From Gammaproteobacteria bacterium (lineage in GTDB: Bacteria; Pseudomonadota; Gammaproteobacteria; Thiomicrospirales; Thiomicrospiraceae): a stretch of 60,445 nucleotides of DNA. The stretch is taken from NCBI GenBank assembly GCA_014763665.1, contig JACXUY010000004.1, forward strand, positions 1 through 60,445, read 5' to 3'. A program made the translations under genes and the position numbers. Positions 19,207 through 45,815 of the stretch are shown here, in pieces. Under the pieces are notes generated by a model. The model ran no database searches, was not told the origin of the DNA, and saw only the letters and a list, made by a program, of their open reading frames with translations. Numbering within the stretch: the stretch's first letter is position 1; each line of letters opens with the position of its first letter.

Positions 19207-19293
19207 GAAAAAGTCGTTTTCGTGATGTTTGCGAGCCTGGTCATCGTTAAAGTCTGCATAAAAGGAGATCGAATATCCCGAGGAATTATAAGT

Positions 19294-19320
19294 GAATGTC
19301 TGAAAAATACAAAAGGGGTG
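19294..19320 (+). repeat. Terminal fragment of the dispersed MITE-like repeat
   Basis: In the waaA-ilvD gap the string GTCTGAAAAATACAAAAGG is identical to one end of the roughly 195-bp elements at 30850 and 43250. The two bases GA upstream and GGGTG downstream are also recognisable. The rest of an element is absent. It is read as a solo end left by deletion. The remaining part of the 19207-19446 gap holds a TATAAT box at 19408-19413 that may drive ilvD. Confidence 0.6.
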
Positions 19321-28378: not shown

Positions 28379-28546
28379 TTAGGAAAGTCTGAATAATGCG
28401 CTCTGCTTTTTATTCAGACTGCCTATTTTGGTTCTTTGCGTGGTGGGAAGGGCATAAATTAATCGGTTTTAGGCTGTTATGGCCTAGCCCTTCCCCCACA
28501 CTTTAGTGCACCGCAAGGTGACACCCTCATCCCTTTTGTATTTTGC
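28379..28546 (+). mobile_element. MITE-like repeat, copy C (right end eroded)
   Basis: A TTAG followed by GAAAGTCTGAATAATG marks the left end, matching the element at 43250. The inner GTGCACCGCAAGGTGACAC hairpin and TCCCTTTTGTATTTT follow, but the final inverted-repeat end is lost and unrelated sequence continues. The first hairpin is shorter than in the other copies. It fills most of the pepA-lptF divergent gap, so promoters of both genes may lie in or around it. No coding frame is present. Confidence 0.8.
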
Positions 28547-28626
28547 ACATATTAACTTACAATACTCAATTTGTGTCTAATGCACAAGCACTGGCACTAA
28601 TCATTAATGAGCAAAGTTATCCACCC

Positions 28627-29703
28627 ATGCGTTTACTAACCGCTTATATCAGTCGAGAAATGACCCTATCCTTCGTGGCGGTGTTGGGAGTATTGCTATT
28701 GGTCATCATGGGCGGAGAAGTTGCTCGTTTGCTGACTGAAGCTTTGGAAGGCCGATTGAGTCCCGACTTGGTATTGCAATTGGTGTTGTTGAAAATCCCG
28801 ATGGCGATGGAAATTTTATTGCCGTTATCAGTGCTCTTGGCGGTAATGCTCACTTTTGGTCGTTTGTATCATGATCGAGAAATGGACGTTTTGGCTGCCA
28901 GTGGCGTAGCGCCAGGCTACTTTGTTCGTTTGGTCATGCTGCTGGCGTTAATGGCCGCCTTAATGGCAGGCTTCTTTTCCTTGTTCGGCGCTTCTTGGTC
29001 GATGCAACAGGAACGGAATATTTTGGCAGAAGGTCAGTTGCGAACACATATAAAATCACTGGTTGGTGGGCGTTTTACGCCCTTGCCCTCGTCGCAAGGG
29101 GTGTTTTATGCGGAAACCGTGAGTGCTAAAGGCGAATTAACGGATATTTTCATTCAATTGCGCACCCCAGAAAAGCTCGATCAATTGTTGTTGGCGCCAC
29201 GTGGTTATTTTGAGCAACAACAGGGGCGAACACAGCTCATTTTGCTTAATGGTCGGGTGATGAGTGGTTTGCTGGGCCAAGAAGAGTTGATGAGTCAAGG
29301 TTTTGAACGAATGACGGTTTGGTTGCCAGATTGGCAAGTAACCTTGTCGGCGTTAGATATTGAAGCCATGGACACGCTAACGCTATGGCAGAAGCGCGAT
29401 GAACCCCGTGCCATGGCGCATTTGCAGTGGCGTTTTTTTGTTATGGCAAGTGTATTAGTGCTGGCGTTTGTCGGTTGGCGTTTAGCGAGAGTGGGGCCGC
29501 GTAAAGGGCGTTATTCACGCATAGCTTTGGGGCTGGGTTTTTATTTGCTCTTTATGCAGGTAGCCATTGCCATGCGTTCACAAATTCAGAGCAGTGGTTT
29601 GCCGATGTTTCCAGGAATGTTGGTCATGTTGGTTTTTCCCATACTGGTTGTGCTGCCGATTGCCCATTGGTGGTGGTTGCTCAAGCGCCGCTTAATTAGG
29701 TAA
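28627..29703 (+). CDS. lptF: LPS export permease LptF
   Basis: It is an inner-membrane subunit of the LptB2FGC ATP-driven exporter that extracts LPS. The 358-residue protein has six membrane helices in two groups of three (about 10-125 and 265-355) flanking a periplasmic beta-jellyroll. MRLLTAYISREMTLSFVAV is the standard N-terminus, and ILLPLSVLLAVMLTFGRLYHDREM is the coupling-helix region. ATG 28627 is chosen over an upstream frame that enters the repeat element. lptG follows eight bases later. Confidence 0.93.
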   Translation: MRLLTAYISREMTLSFVAVLGVLLLVIMGGEVARLLTEALEGRLSPDLVLQLVLLKIPMAMEILLPLSVLLAVMLTFGRLYHDREMDVLAASGVAPGYFVRLVMLLALMAALMAGFFSLFGASWSMQQERNILAEGQLRTHIKSLVGGRFTPLPSSQGVFYAETVSAKGELTDIFIQLRTPEKLDQLLLAPRGYFEQQQGRTQLILLNGRVMSGLLGQEELMSQGFERMTVWLPDWQVTLSALDIEAMDTLTLWQKRDEPRAMAHLQWRFFVMASVLVLAFVGWRLARVGPRKGRYSRIALGLGFYLLFMQVAIAMRSQIQSSGLPMFPGMLVMLVFPILVVLPIAHWWWLLKRRLIR

Positions 29704-29711
29704 ATAGGCTT

Positions 29712-30818
29712 ATGTGGTTCGGTAAAATAGAACGTTATTTAGCGCAGTCCGTTGTTTGGCCTGTGTTAGCTGCTATGTTATTGCTCACCGCTTTGCTGGG
29801 TTTTTCAGAGTTATTGTCCCAACTGGGGCGTTTGTCAGAAAATTATCCACTCACCAAAGCCTTGTTGTTTGCGTTACTAAAAATGCCTGCATATGCCTAT
29901 GAAGTTTTTCCCATGGCGTTGCTGATTGGTGTGTTGGCGGGCATGGGGCAGTTGGCTGCACAAAGTGAGCTAACCATTATTCGTGCTAGTGGTTGGTCGC
30001 CTTCTCGTATTTTGTTCGCCTTGGCTAAGGGATTGTTGCTGATTTGGTTAATGATGCTTTTGGTGGGTGAAAGTTTAGCGCCTTGGGCAGAGAAAACAGC
30101 GTTGCAATTGCGTTTGGTGAATGGGGCGCAACATTTATCCTTAGCGGGTGCAACGGGCTTTTGGACGAAAGATCAGCGGCGTTACATTACAGCACAAACT
30201 GTGGTGAAGCAAGACCAACTGGCAGGTGTCATTATTTACGAGCTGGATACTGCTCAAGATCATTATCATGTGATTCAAGCGCAACAGGCTGATTTTGACG
30301 CCACAAGTCGTCAATGGATTTTGCGCGAAGTACGTCAGCAACAGGTCGCAACAGAAGCGATTGGTGGCGATTTTCCGTTTACAGGGTTAAGCTGGCAACA
30401 AACGCAACAGGCAAGCCTAGCAGTGACTTTGCCTTTTGAACCCATGGCATTGTCTCTAATGGCACAGGATAAGAAAAATTGGTCTTGGATTGAGCTGCGT
30501 TCACAAATCGACAGTATGAAGGCAAGCGGATTACAGACACAGACGCTAGAGCTGGCTTTGTGGCGTAAGCTTGCTCATCCTATTTCATTGCTGGCCATGC
30601 TGGCGTTGGCGCTTACCTTATTGCTTAGCGCGGGTCGTAGCGCCAGTATGGGTGGGCGCGTGTTATTGGGCATTGTCATTGGATTGGTATTCTTTTTACT
30701 GAATCGTGTCGTTGGTGACATGGTGGCTTTGGCACATTTGCCGGCGCTGATCAGTGCCTTCTTGTTGCCAACGACAATTTTATTGGTCAGTTTGATGCTG
30801 CTGTCGAGGATGCGTTAG
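29712..30818 (+). CDS. lptG: LPS export permease LptG
   Basis: Partner of LptF in the LPS exporter. It has 368 residues with the same 3+3 helix plan. The N-terminus is YLAQSVVWPVLAAMLLLTALLGF, the coupling segment is ALLIGVLAGMGQLAAQSELTIIRASGWS, and the terminal helices include GRVLLGIVIGLVFFLLNRVVGDM. It ends the lptFG operon; a MITE-like element begins 31 bases after the stop. Confidence 0.94.
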   Translation: MWFGKIERYLAQSVVWPVLAAMLLLTALLGFSELLSQLGRLSENYPLTKALLFALLKMPAYAYEVFPMALLIGVLAGMGQLAAQSELTIIRASGWSPSRILFALAKGLLLIWLMMLLVGESLAPWAEKTALQLRLVNGAQHLSLAGATGFWTKDQRRYITAQTVVKQDQLAGVIIYELDTAQDHYHVIQAQQADFDATSRQWILREVRQQQVATEAIGGDFPFTGLSWQQTQQASLAVTLPFEPMALSLMAQDKKNWSWIELRSQIDSMKASGLQTQTLELALWRKLAHPISLLAMLALALTLLLSAGRSASMGGRVLLGIVIGLVFFLLNRVVGDMVALAHLPALISAFLLPTTILLVSLMLLSRMR

Positions 30819-30849: not shown

Positions 30850-31044
30850 GGAATCTCTGAAAAATACAAAAGGGATGGAGGTGTCACCTTGCGGTGCACT
30901 AAAGTGTGGGGGAAGGACTGCATTATAGTGACAGCTAACCACGTGATTTAATGTCCTTCCACCAAGCAAAAAATGAGAATGGGAAGTCTGAATGAGAAGC
31001 GACGCTTTAGCGCTGCGAAGCAGAAGCCATTATTCAGACCTTCC
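30850..31044 (-). mobile_element. MITE-like repeat, copy B (complete, CTAG duplication)
   Basis: This 195-bp non-coding element is flanked by CTAG at 30846-30849 and 31045-31048. The ends are GGAATCTCTGAAAAATAC and the complement of GGAAGGTCTGAATAATGG, resembling IS5-family termini. It is inverted relative to copies A and C. Inside are three inverted repeats, including GGTGTCACCTTGCGGTGCAC. It lies between lptG and lipA. Confidence 0.85.
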
Positions 31045-42046: not shown

Positions 42047-43183
42047 ATGAAAACACAGTCTCACAATGAATGGCAAAATTTTTGCGCTTTTTGGCTGCAG
42101 CAGGGTTATGTTGTGGTTGAAGAGTGGCATGATGCGAAATGGGCTAATGCAACCTTGGCGCAGAGTGGGCAGCACGTATGGTTACGCATGCGCAAATCAG
42201 ATGAAAAGGTTACGGCAGCACAGCTCGACAAATTCATGTACAGCCTAGAAAGCCAGCAAGATCAGCAATTGATTGGTTGCATGGCTTCTAGTAAGGGTTT
42301 TACCAAGGCAGCGATCACGCAAGTGACGCGCGAAGCACCTGAACGATTGGTGTTATTGACTGAGCATAAGCAAAAAGTGGTGTCCGCTTACCCTTTCACG
42401 CAATTTAGTGAATCTCAGGCAATTGCTGCTTCTGCACCAGCTTATGTCGGTGTCTTTACTGCCAAAGGTGGTGTGGGTAAGACCACCATAGCAGCCCATT
42501 TAGCGGGCGCTTTTGCTTTGATGGGGCAGTCGGTAGTACTACTTGACCTAGATCCAGACCAAAATTTACGTAAACTCTTCGCACAAGAAAACCAACCGGA
42601 ATTGGCTGAGCTTCATGTTCCTGCGGTGAACAAACACGAAGCAGGTGCGATGATTCGCGTGTTAACACCCGAGCAGTGGCGTGAGAGTCAATATCCCGAT
42701 GTGCGCATTGTCATCGCCGATTGTTCACCAGTATTGTCCGAAAACCCAATTAAGCTAGTGAAGCGAATGGATGTGTGTTTGATGCCAACCAGTTTGAACC
42801 CGCTGGGTATTTCAAAACATGGTGATGTCATTCAGCGTACCTTTGCGCATATTCGCAGTATTAACCAAAAAGCGCGCCTGTTAGCGGTAATTAATCAGTT
42901 TGATGCCAGTAAAGCCTTTCAAGAGCGCAATGATGTCTTGCTGGCGTATTTGCAATCGGCATTAACAGACTATCTAAAGCAAGATGAACTGGCAACCCTC
43001 ATTCATCCCGATGAAGCCAAAATTCGTTACAGTCATGCCTTGCTTTATTGGGGATTTCATATCATTGAGGGCAGTGCGCCTCAATTGGCTTTCAAGCTGA
43101 CAGGTGGTCGCAGTTATCCGCGTAGTGATTTTTTGCAGTTGGCCGATGTTGTAGAACATACTTTGGCTTCTAGCAAAACCTAG
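42047..43183 (+). CDS. ParA/MinD-like ATPase with N-terminal restriction-endonuclease-like domain
   Basis: A two-domain protein of 378 residues. Residues 133-375 are a ParA-type ATPase with deviant Walker A KGGVGKTT (140-147), VVLLDLDPDQNL and IVIADCSP. Residues 1-118 resemble the Mrr-cat nuclease fold: GYVVVEEWHDAKW, a strand VWLRMRKS where QxK would stand, then IGCMASSKGFTKAAITQV and ERLVLLTEHK. The Q is replaced, so cleavage activity is doubtful. It is not next to parB or a chromosome origin. GGAAAAATCA precedes the ATG. It may position or sense DNA or protein cargo. Confidence 0.75.
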   Translation: MKTQSHNEWQNFCAFWLQQGYVVVEEWHDAKWANATLAQSGQHVWLRMRKSDEKVTAAQLDKFMYSLESQQDQQLIGCMASSKGFTKAAITQVTREAPERLVLLTEHKQKVVSAYPFTQFSESQAIAASAPAYVGVFTAKGGVGKTTIAAHLAGAFALMGQSVVLLDLDPDQNLRKLFAQENQPELAELHVPAVNKHEAGAMIRVLTPEQWRESQYPDVRIVIADCSPVLSENPIKLVKRMDVCLMPTSLNPLGISKHGDVIQRTFAHIRSINQKARLLAVINQFDASKAFQERNDVLLAYLQSALTDYLKQDELATLIHPDEAKIRYSHALLYWGFHIIEGSAPQLAFKLTGGRSYPRSDFLQLADVVEHTLASSKT

Positions 43184-43249
43184 TTGCTCTGTGAGGAACT
43201 TTTTGCAGCTGCCATAAGTGTATTTGATTACGAACAGGCTGACGCTTAG

Positions 43250-43443
43250 GGAAGGTCTGAATAATGGCTTCTGCTTCGCTGCGCTAAAGCGTCGCTTCTT
43301 ATTCAGACTTCCCATTTTCATTTTTGGGTTGGTGGAAGGACATTAAATCACGTGGTTACCTGTTTCTAAAATGCAGTCCTTCCCCCAACTTTAGTGCACC
43401 GCAAGGTGACACCCCCATCCCTTTTGTATTTTTCAGACCTTCC
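43250..43443 (+). mobile_element. MITE-like repeat, copy A (complete, TTAG duplication)
   Basis: A 194-bp non-coding element flanked by TTAG at 43246-43249 and 43444-43447. The inverted ends are GGAAGGTCTGAATAA and GGAAGGTCTGAAAAA, like those of IS5-family elements. Three hairpins can form: 43250-43312, 43334-43383, and GTGCACC-GCAA-GGTGACAC at 43394-43412. It is in the same orientation as copy C and opposite to copy B. Confidence 0.88.
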
Positions 43444-43487
43444 TTAGGTTACAATGATGACTTAATGAATCGTTTGGAGAGTGGTTT

Positions 43488-45140: not shown

Positions 45141-45572
45141 CTAATTTAAATGGCTGTGCAGATGTTTAATCATATTGTACAAGCCATTGGCTCGACTGGG
45201 TGAGAGGTGTTGCATTAAGCCAATCTTGCCTAGGAAGTCTAAAGGTGTGGTTAATATTTCTTCTTTAGTGCGCCCATTGTAAACCCATAGAAGTAAGGCA
45301 ATCATGCCAGCGACAATGGAAGCTTCGCTTTTAGCACGAAGATAATAGCGACCCGCTTCGCAATCAATTTTTAGCCAAACTTGAGATTGACAGCCATGAA
45401 TTTGATTGTCTTCAGTTTGCCAAGCAGCATCGAATTCAGGTAGTTTCTTGCCAAGATCTATTAGGTATTGATAACGTTCTTTCCAATCGTTAAAAAAGGC
45501 AAAACGCTCAACCAATTGATCAATCGTAGTTTGAATATCGTTTTTGGGCGGGGTATTTACAGGATTATCCAT
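45141..45572 (-). CDS. sufE: SufE-family sulfur acceptor
   Basis: It accepts persulfide sulfur from a cysteine desulfurase (SufS/CsdA) for iron-sulfur assembly. The 143 residues hold the family core FNDWKERYQYLIDLGKKLP, the active-site loop HGCQSQVW with Cys61, and ASIVAGMIALLLWVYNGRT. No suf operon genes accompany it; solitary csdE/sufE genes are common. It diverges from the Tat-exported MBL gene. Confidence 0.94.
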   Translation of the reverse strand: MDNPVNTPPKNDIQTTIDQLVERFAFFNDWKERYQYLIDLGKKLPEFDAAWQTEDNQIHGCQSQVWLKIDCEAGRYYLRAKSEASIVAGMIALLLWVYNGRTKEEILTTPLDFLGKIGLMQHLSPSRANGLYNMIKHLHSHLN

Positions 45573-45597
45573 CGGCGACCTCTAAAAACCTTAATGG

Positions 45598-45672
45598 GAA
45601 GGGGGCTGGAGGAAGGGGTGCTGGGAAAATACAGTGACCATTTTATTTAGCTCTTCCACCAGAGATAAAAAA
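45598..45672. repeat. Possible worn copy of the dispersed repeat
   Basis: In the sufE-MBL gap GGAAGGGG-TGC, ACAGTGACCA, TTTATTTAG and CTTCCACCAGAGATAAAAAATAG occur in the same order as GGAAGGACTGC, AGTGACAG, TTTAATG and CCTTCCACCAAGCAAAAAATGAG in copy B. The termini are missing. It may be chance. A separate hairpin, CCTAAAAA / TTTTTAGG, follows at about 45685-45713. Confidence 0.3.
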
Positions 45673-45815
45673 TAGATCGGGGAACCTAAAAATGCGATGA
45701 AATCGGCTTTTTAGGAGTGTCCCATTGTCTAAATTACTCAGCTAAGCTACATTATACGCTGAATGTGAAATGCGTGCCACGCATGAAATGACAGAACAAA
45801 AAAGAGGAAAGTAAA

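Follow-up and report, generated by a model that had tools for sequence, protein, structure and literature searches.

Short non-coding elements scattered between the genes of this gammaproteobacterium are identified as MITEs that carry either of two sets of IS5-type ends around a common body, at whose centre a motif resembling the IHF consensus WATCAANNNNTTR is conserved. We give a probability of about 80% to the reading that two IS5-type transposases mobilise these elements in trans and that IHF bends the middle of each element, which would bring its ends close to one another. Copies of the family measure 145–250 bp, mostly about 150–195 bp, and occur by the dozen in the host genome, with more in related genomes. 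All are shorter than about 500 bp, carry no transposase gene and are bounded by terminal inverted repeats of the form GGAAGGTCTGAAWAA (A-type) or GGGCACCTCTAAAAACC (B-type).

Element copies in the window

The window, by which we mean the whole 60,445-base stretch analysed, corresponds to contig 153 of a 2.17-Mb draft genome in 238 contigs (genome G000), and its features are collected in Table 1. The original prediction described here a family of about 195-bp MITE-like elements with IS5-type ends, and for its two better copies, which are 93% identical to each other, the coordinates, the TTAG and CTAG duplications, the inverted orientation of the second and the inverted ends were all exact. A third copy had been thought to have lost its right end; in fact this end is present in a substituted form, TTTTGCACATATTAA replacing TTTTTCAGAGNTTCC, and its CTTA pair persists. 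The family itself is thus real, but the length of 195 bp applies to one subclass only, as many copies are about 150 bp long. Its assignment to MITEs held as well, since the copies lack a transposase gene and show terminal inverted repeats, target duplications and empty sites. The prediction overlooked two members in the window, namely the full-length B-type copy and the right-end remnant of Table 1, and likewise the existence of a second end set, the IHF-type site and the covariation of the left hairpin.

Only one listed ORF of at least 100 aa (42974–43321) overlaps the first A-type copy, and it lies mostly outside the element. The B-type copy directly abuts the minus-strand ORF 45141–45572 at its start codon, so that the leader of this ORF may be altered. 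Window ORFs resemble CbbR-type LysR regulators and SoxH-like proteins, which tentatively suggests a chemoautotrophic sulfur oxidiser as the host.

Table 1. Copies, sites and remnants of the MITE family located in the window.
Feature	Position	Strand	Remarks
A-type MITE	43250..43443	+	194 bp; TTAG at 43246-43249 and 43444-43447; empty TTAG site in related genome G001 (locus L329)
Left-end hairpin	43250..43312	+	left inverted repeat GGAAGGTCTGAATAA and internal inverted copy TTATTCAGACTTCC; covaries in relatives
IHF-consensus-like site AATCACGTGGTTA	43346..43358	+	1 mismatch; centre of copy 43250-43443
A-type MITE	30850..31044	-	195 bp; CTAG on either side
IHF-like site AATCACGTGGTTA	30936..30948	-	1 mismatch; in copy 30850-31044
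Older A-type MITE	28382..28555	+	174 bp; mutated right end; CTTA on either side
Degenerate IHF-like site AATTAATCGGTTT	28457..28469	+	2 mismatches; in copy 28382-28555
B-type MITE	45574..45722	-	left end GGACACTCCTAAAAA, right end GGTTTTTAGAGGTCGCC; AATG/GATG flanks; nhmmer E 1.1e-25, sequence, partial BLAST match
A-type right-end remnant	19293..19320	-	nhmmer E 0.0057
Single TTAT, empty site	29710..29713	+	B-type copy there in G001; between ORFs 28543-29703 and 29712-30818

Abundance, placement and mobility

Further copies in the genome, which the original prediction expected a BLAST search to reveal, were abundant. The copy at 43250–43443 gave at least 46 matches in its own genome (best E 9e-98), at least 15 in G001 and at least 3 in G002; no match was found in 59 genomes from other genera of the family. 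Searched with a B-type copy, the four genomes of the genus yielded at least 41, 40, 15 and 2 matches, counts that take in the shared body; the A and B sets of the own genome overlap. The census scored about 40 candidates per genome, and its counts are therefore lower bounds. Collections of plasmids and phages contained no match to the MITE, and a scan of contigs with an inner motif of the element likewise returned none. A relative, Thiotrichales bacterium 35-46-9, matches a neighbouring locus of 2.6 kb at 93% identity.

The copies lie between genes: the centres of 3 out of 51 fell inside ORFs of at least 150 aa, whereas positions drawn at random from these loci did so in 86% of cases, and all orientations of the neighbouring genes were encountered. 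At one locus (L076; G000 contig 72:700–2500), several broken and complete copies of both types lie within about 1 kb, possibly an insertion hotspot.

Mobility is recorded by filled and empty sites. The exact site of copy 43250–43443 exists in G001, where the joined flanks contain one TTAG and align over the junction without a gap, which is the single-YTAR empty site that had been anticipated. A reciprocal filled/empty pair was found in one intergenic region, which holds a B copy in G000 that is absent from G001 (99% identity across the junction) and an A copy in G001 that is absent from G000. The flank adjoining copy 30850–31044 is unaligned in the sister genome, hence no empty site can be read there.

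Two end types and candidate transposases

The two types differ in their target rule as well as their ends. A-type copies are flanked by YTAR duplications, as the original prediction had it, and in 11 copies the two members of the pair are identical; YTAR is the target motif of IS5 (PMC10359306). B-type copies are flanked by 4-bp duplications without a fixed sequence (TGAT, AATA, TTCA, CTTA, ATTA, TGAA, GAAA, TGTT, AGTA and ACTA), and in 11 of 24 copies the 4-bp repeat is perfect when read at a single fixed register. These duplications are not YTAR, which means that B obeys a different target rule; by this feature the A-type belongs with the IS5 subgroup and the B-type does not.

The A-type ends are shared with autonomous transposons of other bacteria. 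A scan of GTDB genomes located YTAR followed by GGAAGGTCTGAAWAA in at least 113 stretches, for which we estimate a chance expectation of about 15. In several cases the ends form a pair whose YTAR flanks are identical, around approximately 1.16–1.20 kb that include an ORF (310–347 aa) for an IS5 transposase, and the two such transposases that were scanned both match PF01609, PF05598 and NF033581. The prediction of IS5-type ends is borne out by these transposons, members of the IS5 subgroup with a DDE transposase (NF033581), with which the present family has only the end sequences in common, as it lacks the transposase gene. Many non-coding elements of 90–280 bp with GGAAGGTCTGAAWAA ends and YTAR pairs were also seen in other bacteria (L153, L167, L179–L182, L186 and others), and are apparently independent MITE families.

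B-type ends are found on IS5-family elements with GGGCACCTCKAAAAACC ends, carried by pQBR55 and in part by an Acidithiobacillus caldus plasmid; ends like GGGCACCTCGAAAAACC occur on related transposons of both plasmids. Each of these elements has a complete transposase gene (about 1.0 kb), and what the B-type MITEs have in common with them is limited to roughly the terminal 17 bp. The transposase of the plasmid elements is approximately 50% identical, over 95 residues, to fragments in the genome that holds the window. Five such IS5 transposase gene fragments exist there, all limited to the N-terminal region and mostly located at contig ends. The B-type left end GGGCACCTCTAAAAACCTCC adjoins two of the five, and one of the copies has an internal deletion but retains both ends.

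The original prediction attributed mobilisation to a full IS5-like element elsewhere in the genome. This was not upheld: the DDE domain PF01609 was found neither in this genome nor in its genus, and the IS5 remains are the N-terminal fragments with B-type ends. A transposase gene between the same ends does exist in other bacteria, but in the draft assemblies of this genus, which are broken at repeats, no intact transposase was found for the A (GGAAGGTCTGAA) or the B ends. Among 63 genomes of the family, PF01609 transposons were found, none of those retrieved having these ends; the best IS5 relatives among them end with GGAAACACAGAACAAG or similar. MITE copies or IS5 fragments occupy many contig ends of G000 (C205, C195, C14, C187, C93, C212, C34 and C173), so that breaks of the assembly at these repeats are probable, and it may lack intact transposons. 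With the transposases absent from the assembly, the family could by now be stranded for the most part.

The central IHF-type site

A 13-bp motif at the centre of the elements matches WATCAANNNNTTR exactly in 20 of 45 cores and with at most one mismatch in 36 of 45, compared with 0.15 and 2.7 in dinucleotide-preserving shuffles, though these counts are not independent because the copies are related by descent. An ancestor could also have carried the motif by accident, which we estimate at about 0.5–1%. In the determinant columns, 91% of cells conform to the IHF consensus; the W column is A or T in 100% and the R column A or G in 98%. Of the four N columns, three are free to vary and the fourth is mostly G. 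The two young copies of the window depart from the consensus by one mismatch each.

In most A-short, A-long and B copies of full length, the site is located at 0.53–0.54 of the length; it lies at 0.35–0.61 where a copy has tandem units or just one of its two inserts. An IHF site extends 5′ of its consensus, so the predicted bend falls near the midpoint of the element. Both IHF subunit genes were detected in the host above curated cut-offs. In addition, the site of copy L029, AATCAAGCAGTTA, is identical to a 13-mer that has been located upstream of glpFK, where IHF is reported to bind it (PMC2753651).

Body plan, mosaic copies and the left hairpin

Both A and B copies follow one plan, which runs from the left end through an internal inverted copy of that end (forming a hairpin), a T-rich linker, GGTGGAAGGG, AATCAAnnGGTTA, CCCTTCCCCCA and, where present, the hairpin unit ACTTTAGTGCACCGCAAGGTGAC, which certain copies repeat in tandem, to the right end. 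A 23-bp hairpin unit, CACTTTAGTGCACCGCAAGGTGA, is present in about 3–4 tandem copies at L078 (G000 contig 201:313–417), L015 (contig 186:19230–19330) and L080 (contig 230:560–640), and the number of these units differs between the orthologues L019 and L065.

Some copies are mosaic. In L081 (G000 contig 131, approximately 28860–29000), a single core lies between a B right end and an A right end, and in L026, L082 and L299 B ends occur together with hairpin loops or linkers that resemble those of A copies. A tentative reading, which we hold to be somewhat short of an even chance, is that an IHF-centred MITE body has switched its transposase: the same core and left hairpin carry two end sets with different target rules, and the body would survive beyond a given transposon because it can take on new ends, the probable route being recombination of copies within the inverted arms that they have in common. 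The chimera L081 and the three intermediates fit such an end switch.

The left hairpin covaries. For 27 B copies, compensatory changes were found in 7 of 13 pairs (13 cells), which none of 500 shuffles equalled and all slid controls fell below; three pairs of the A copies also contain compensatory changes. The right end does not track the changes of the left hairpin in copies read by eye (e.g., L316, L063 and the window copy). This indicates either a DNA or RNA hairpin under selection or a palindrome repair that keeps the arms alike. The copy at 43250–43443 folds strongly (z −4.8). The core was also considered as an RNA structure and rejected, as RNAalifold gave 5 pairs, none of them compensatory. 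Rfam had no match inside the four elements tested.

Discussion

The proposed mechanism is as follows. A copies would be moved into YTAR by an IS5-subgroup transposase recognising GGAAGGTCTGAAWAA, and B copies by the IS5-family element whose fragments sit in the host's own genome. Host IHF may bind the putative central site and fold the element into a U-turn, which would bring both ends together for the transposase; IHF bound there may also influence neighbouring promoters. The possibility that the elements are plain IS5-derived MITEs, whose conserved centre is hitch-hiking ancestral sequence with no role for IHF, we regard as rather unlikely. All copies share ancestors, so shared sequence alone would be expected, and the arms GGTGGAAGGG and CCCTTCCCCCA beside the site are equally conserved. 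Yet the conservation follows the IHF consensus down to the degenerate W and R and the three free N positions, and the site is kept at the same central position in both subfamilies; the identity of L029 with the glpFK site argues against hitch-hiking in the same manner.

A little less probable again is a structured RNA or transcript-stability element, that is, RNA hairpins in the transcripts of neighbouring genes like the Correia/NEMIS repeats cleaved by RNase III. The compensatory pairs of the B left hairpin and the strong fold of the window copy agree with this reading, and intergenic placement suits it too, but the core stem carries no compensatory change, the four elements tested lack an Rfam match and the presence of copies in all gene orientations counts against a role in transcripts. 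Quasi-palindrome repair, or another process at the DNA level, would moreover give identical covariation. Mobilisation by RAYT (TnpA-REP) as REP/BIME-type repeats, which are similarly numerous, hairpin-forming and intergenic, is highly improbable, being contradicted by the 4-bp target duplications, terminal inverted repeats and exact empty sites, as well as by IS5 transposons with the same ends; we know of no REP elements with such target duplications. We thus favour two IS5-type transposases acting in trans on elements whose centre would be bent by IHF.

Among the closest parallels is the Correia element of Neisseria (CREE/NEMIS, 105–155 bp), likewise a short non-coding MITE with terminal inverted repeats. 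Its target duplication is TA, and its ends, duplication and sequence differ from those of the present family, in which neither the Neisserial ends nor TA was found; we therefore consider that the family works like Correia elements but is not a member. To our knowledge, Correia elements do not bear two sets of ends. Their 155-bp form, which is mostly intergenic, contains an internal IHF site and binds IHF in vitro (PMC2229807). QMITE1 of Coxiella burnetii is also a MITE with a conserved WATCAANNNNTTR site, but is about 400 bp long with 21-bp inverted repeats, unlike the family here, and the passages cited here name no IS5 parent for it (PMC5896051). Within the IS5 family, E. coli IS5 has an IHF site and a bend in its 3′ part (PMC2753651), and IS427-group elements contain partial IHF matches within the left end.

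One body with two IS5-type end sets bears on the open question of how MITEs originate and how they endure when no parent is present. Two testable ideas arise, namely that MITEs survive by changing their transposase, and that ends only 150 bp apart are brought together with the help of a central IHF bend. The family also places dozens of portable IHF-type sites between the genes of one genus, which may be a source of regulatory change.
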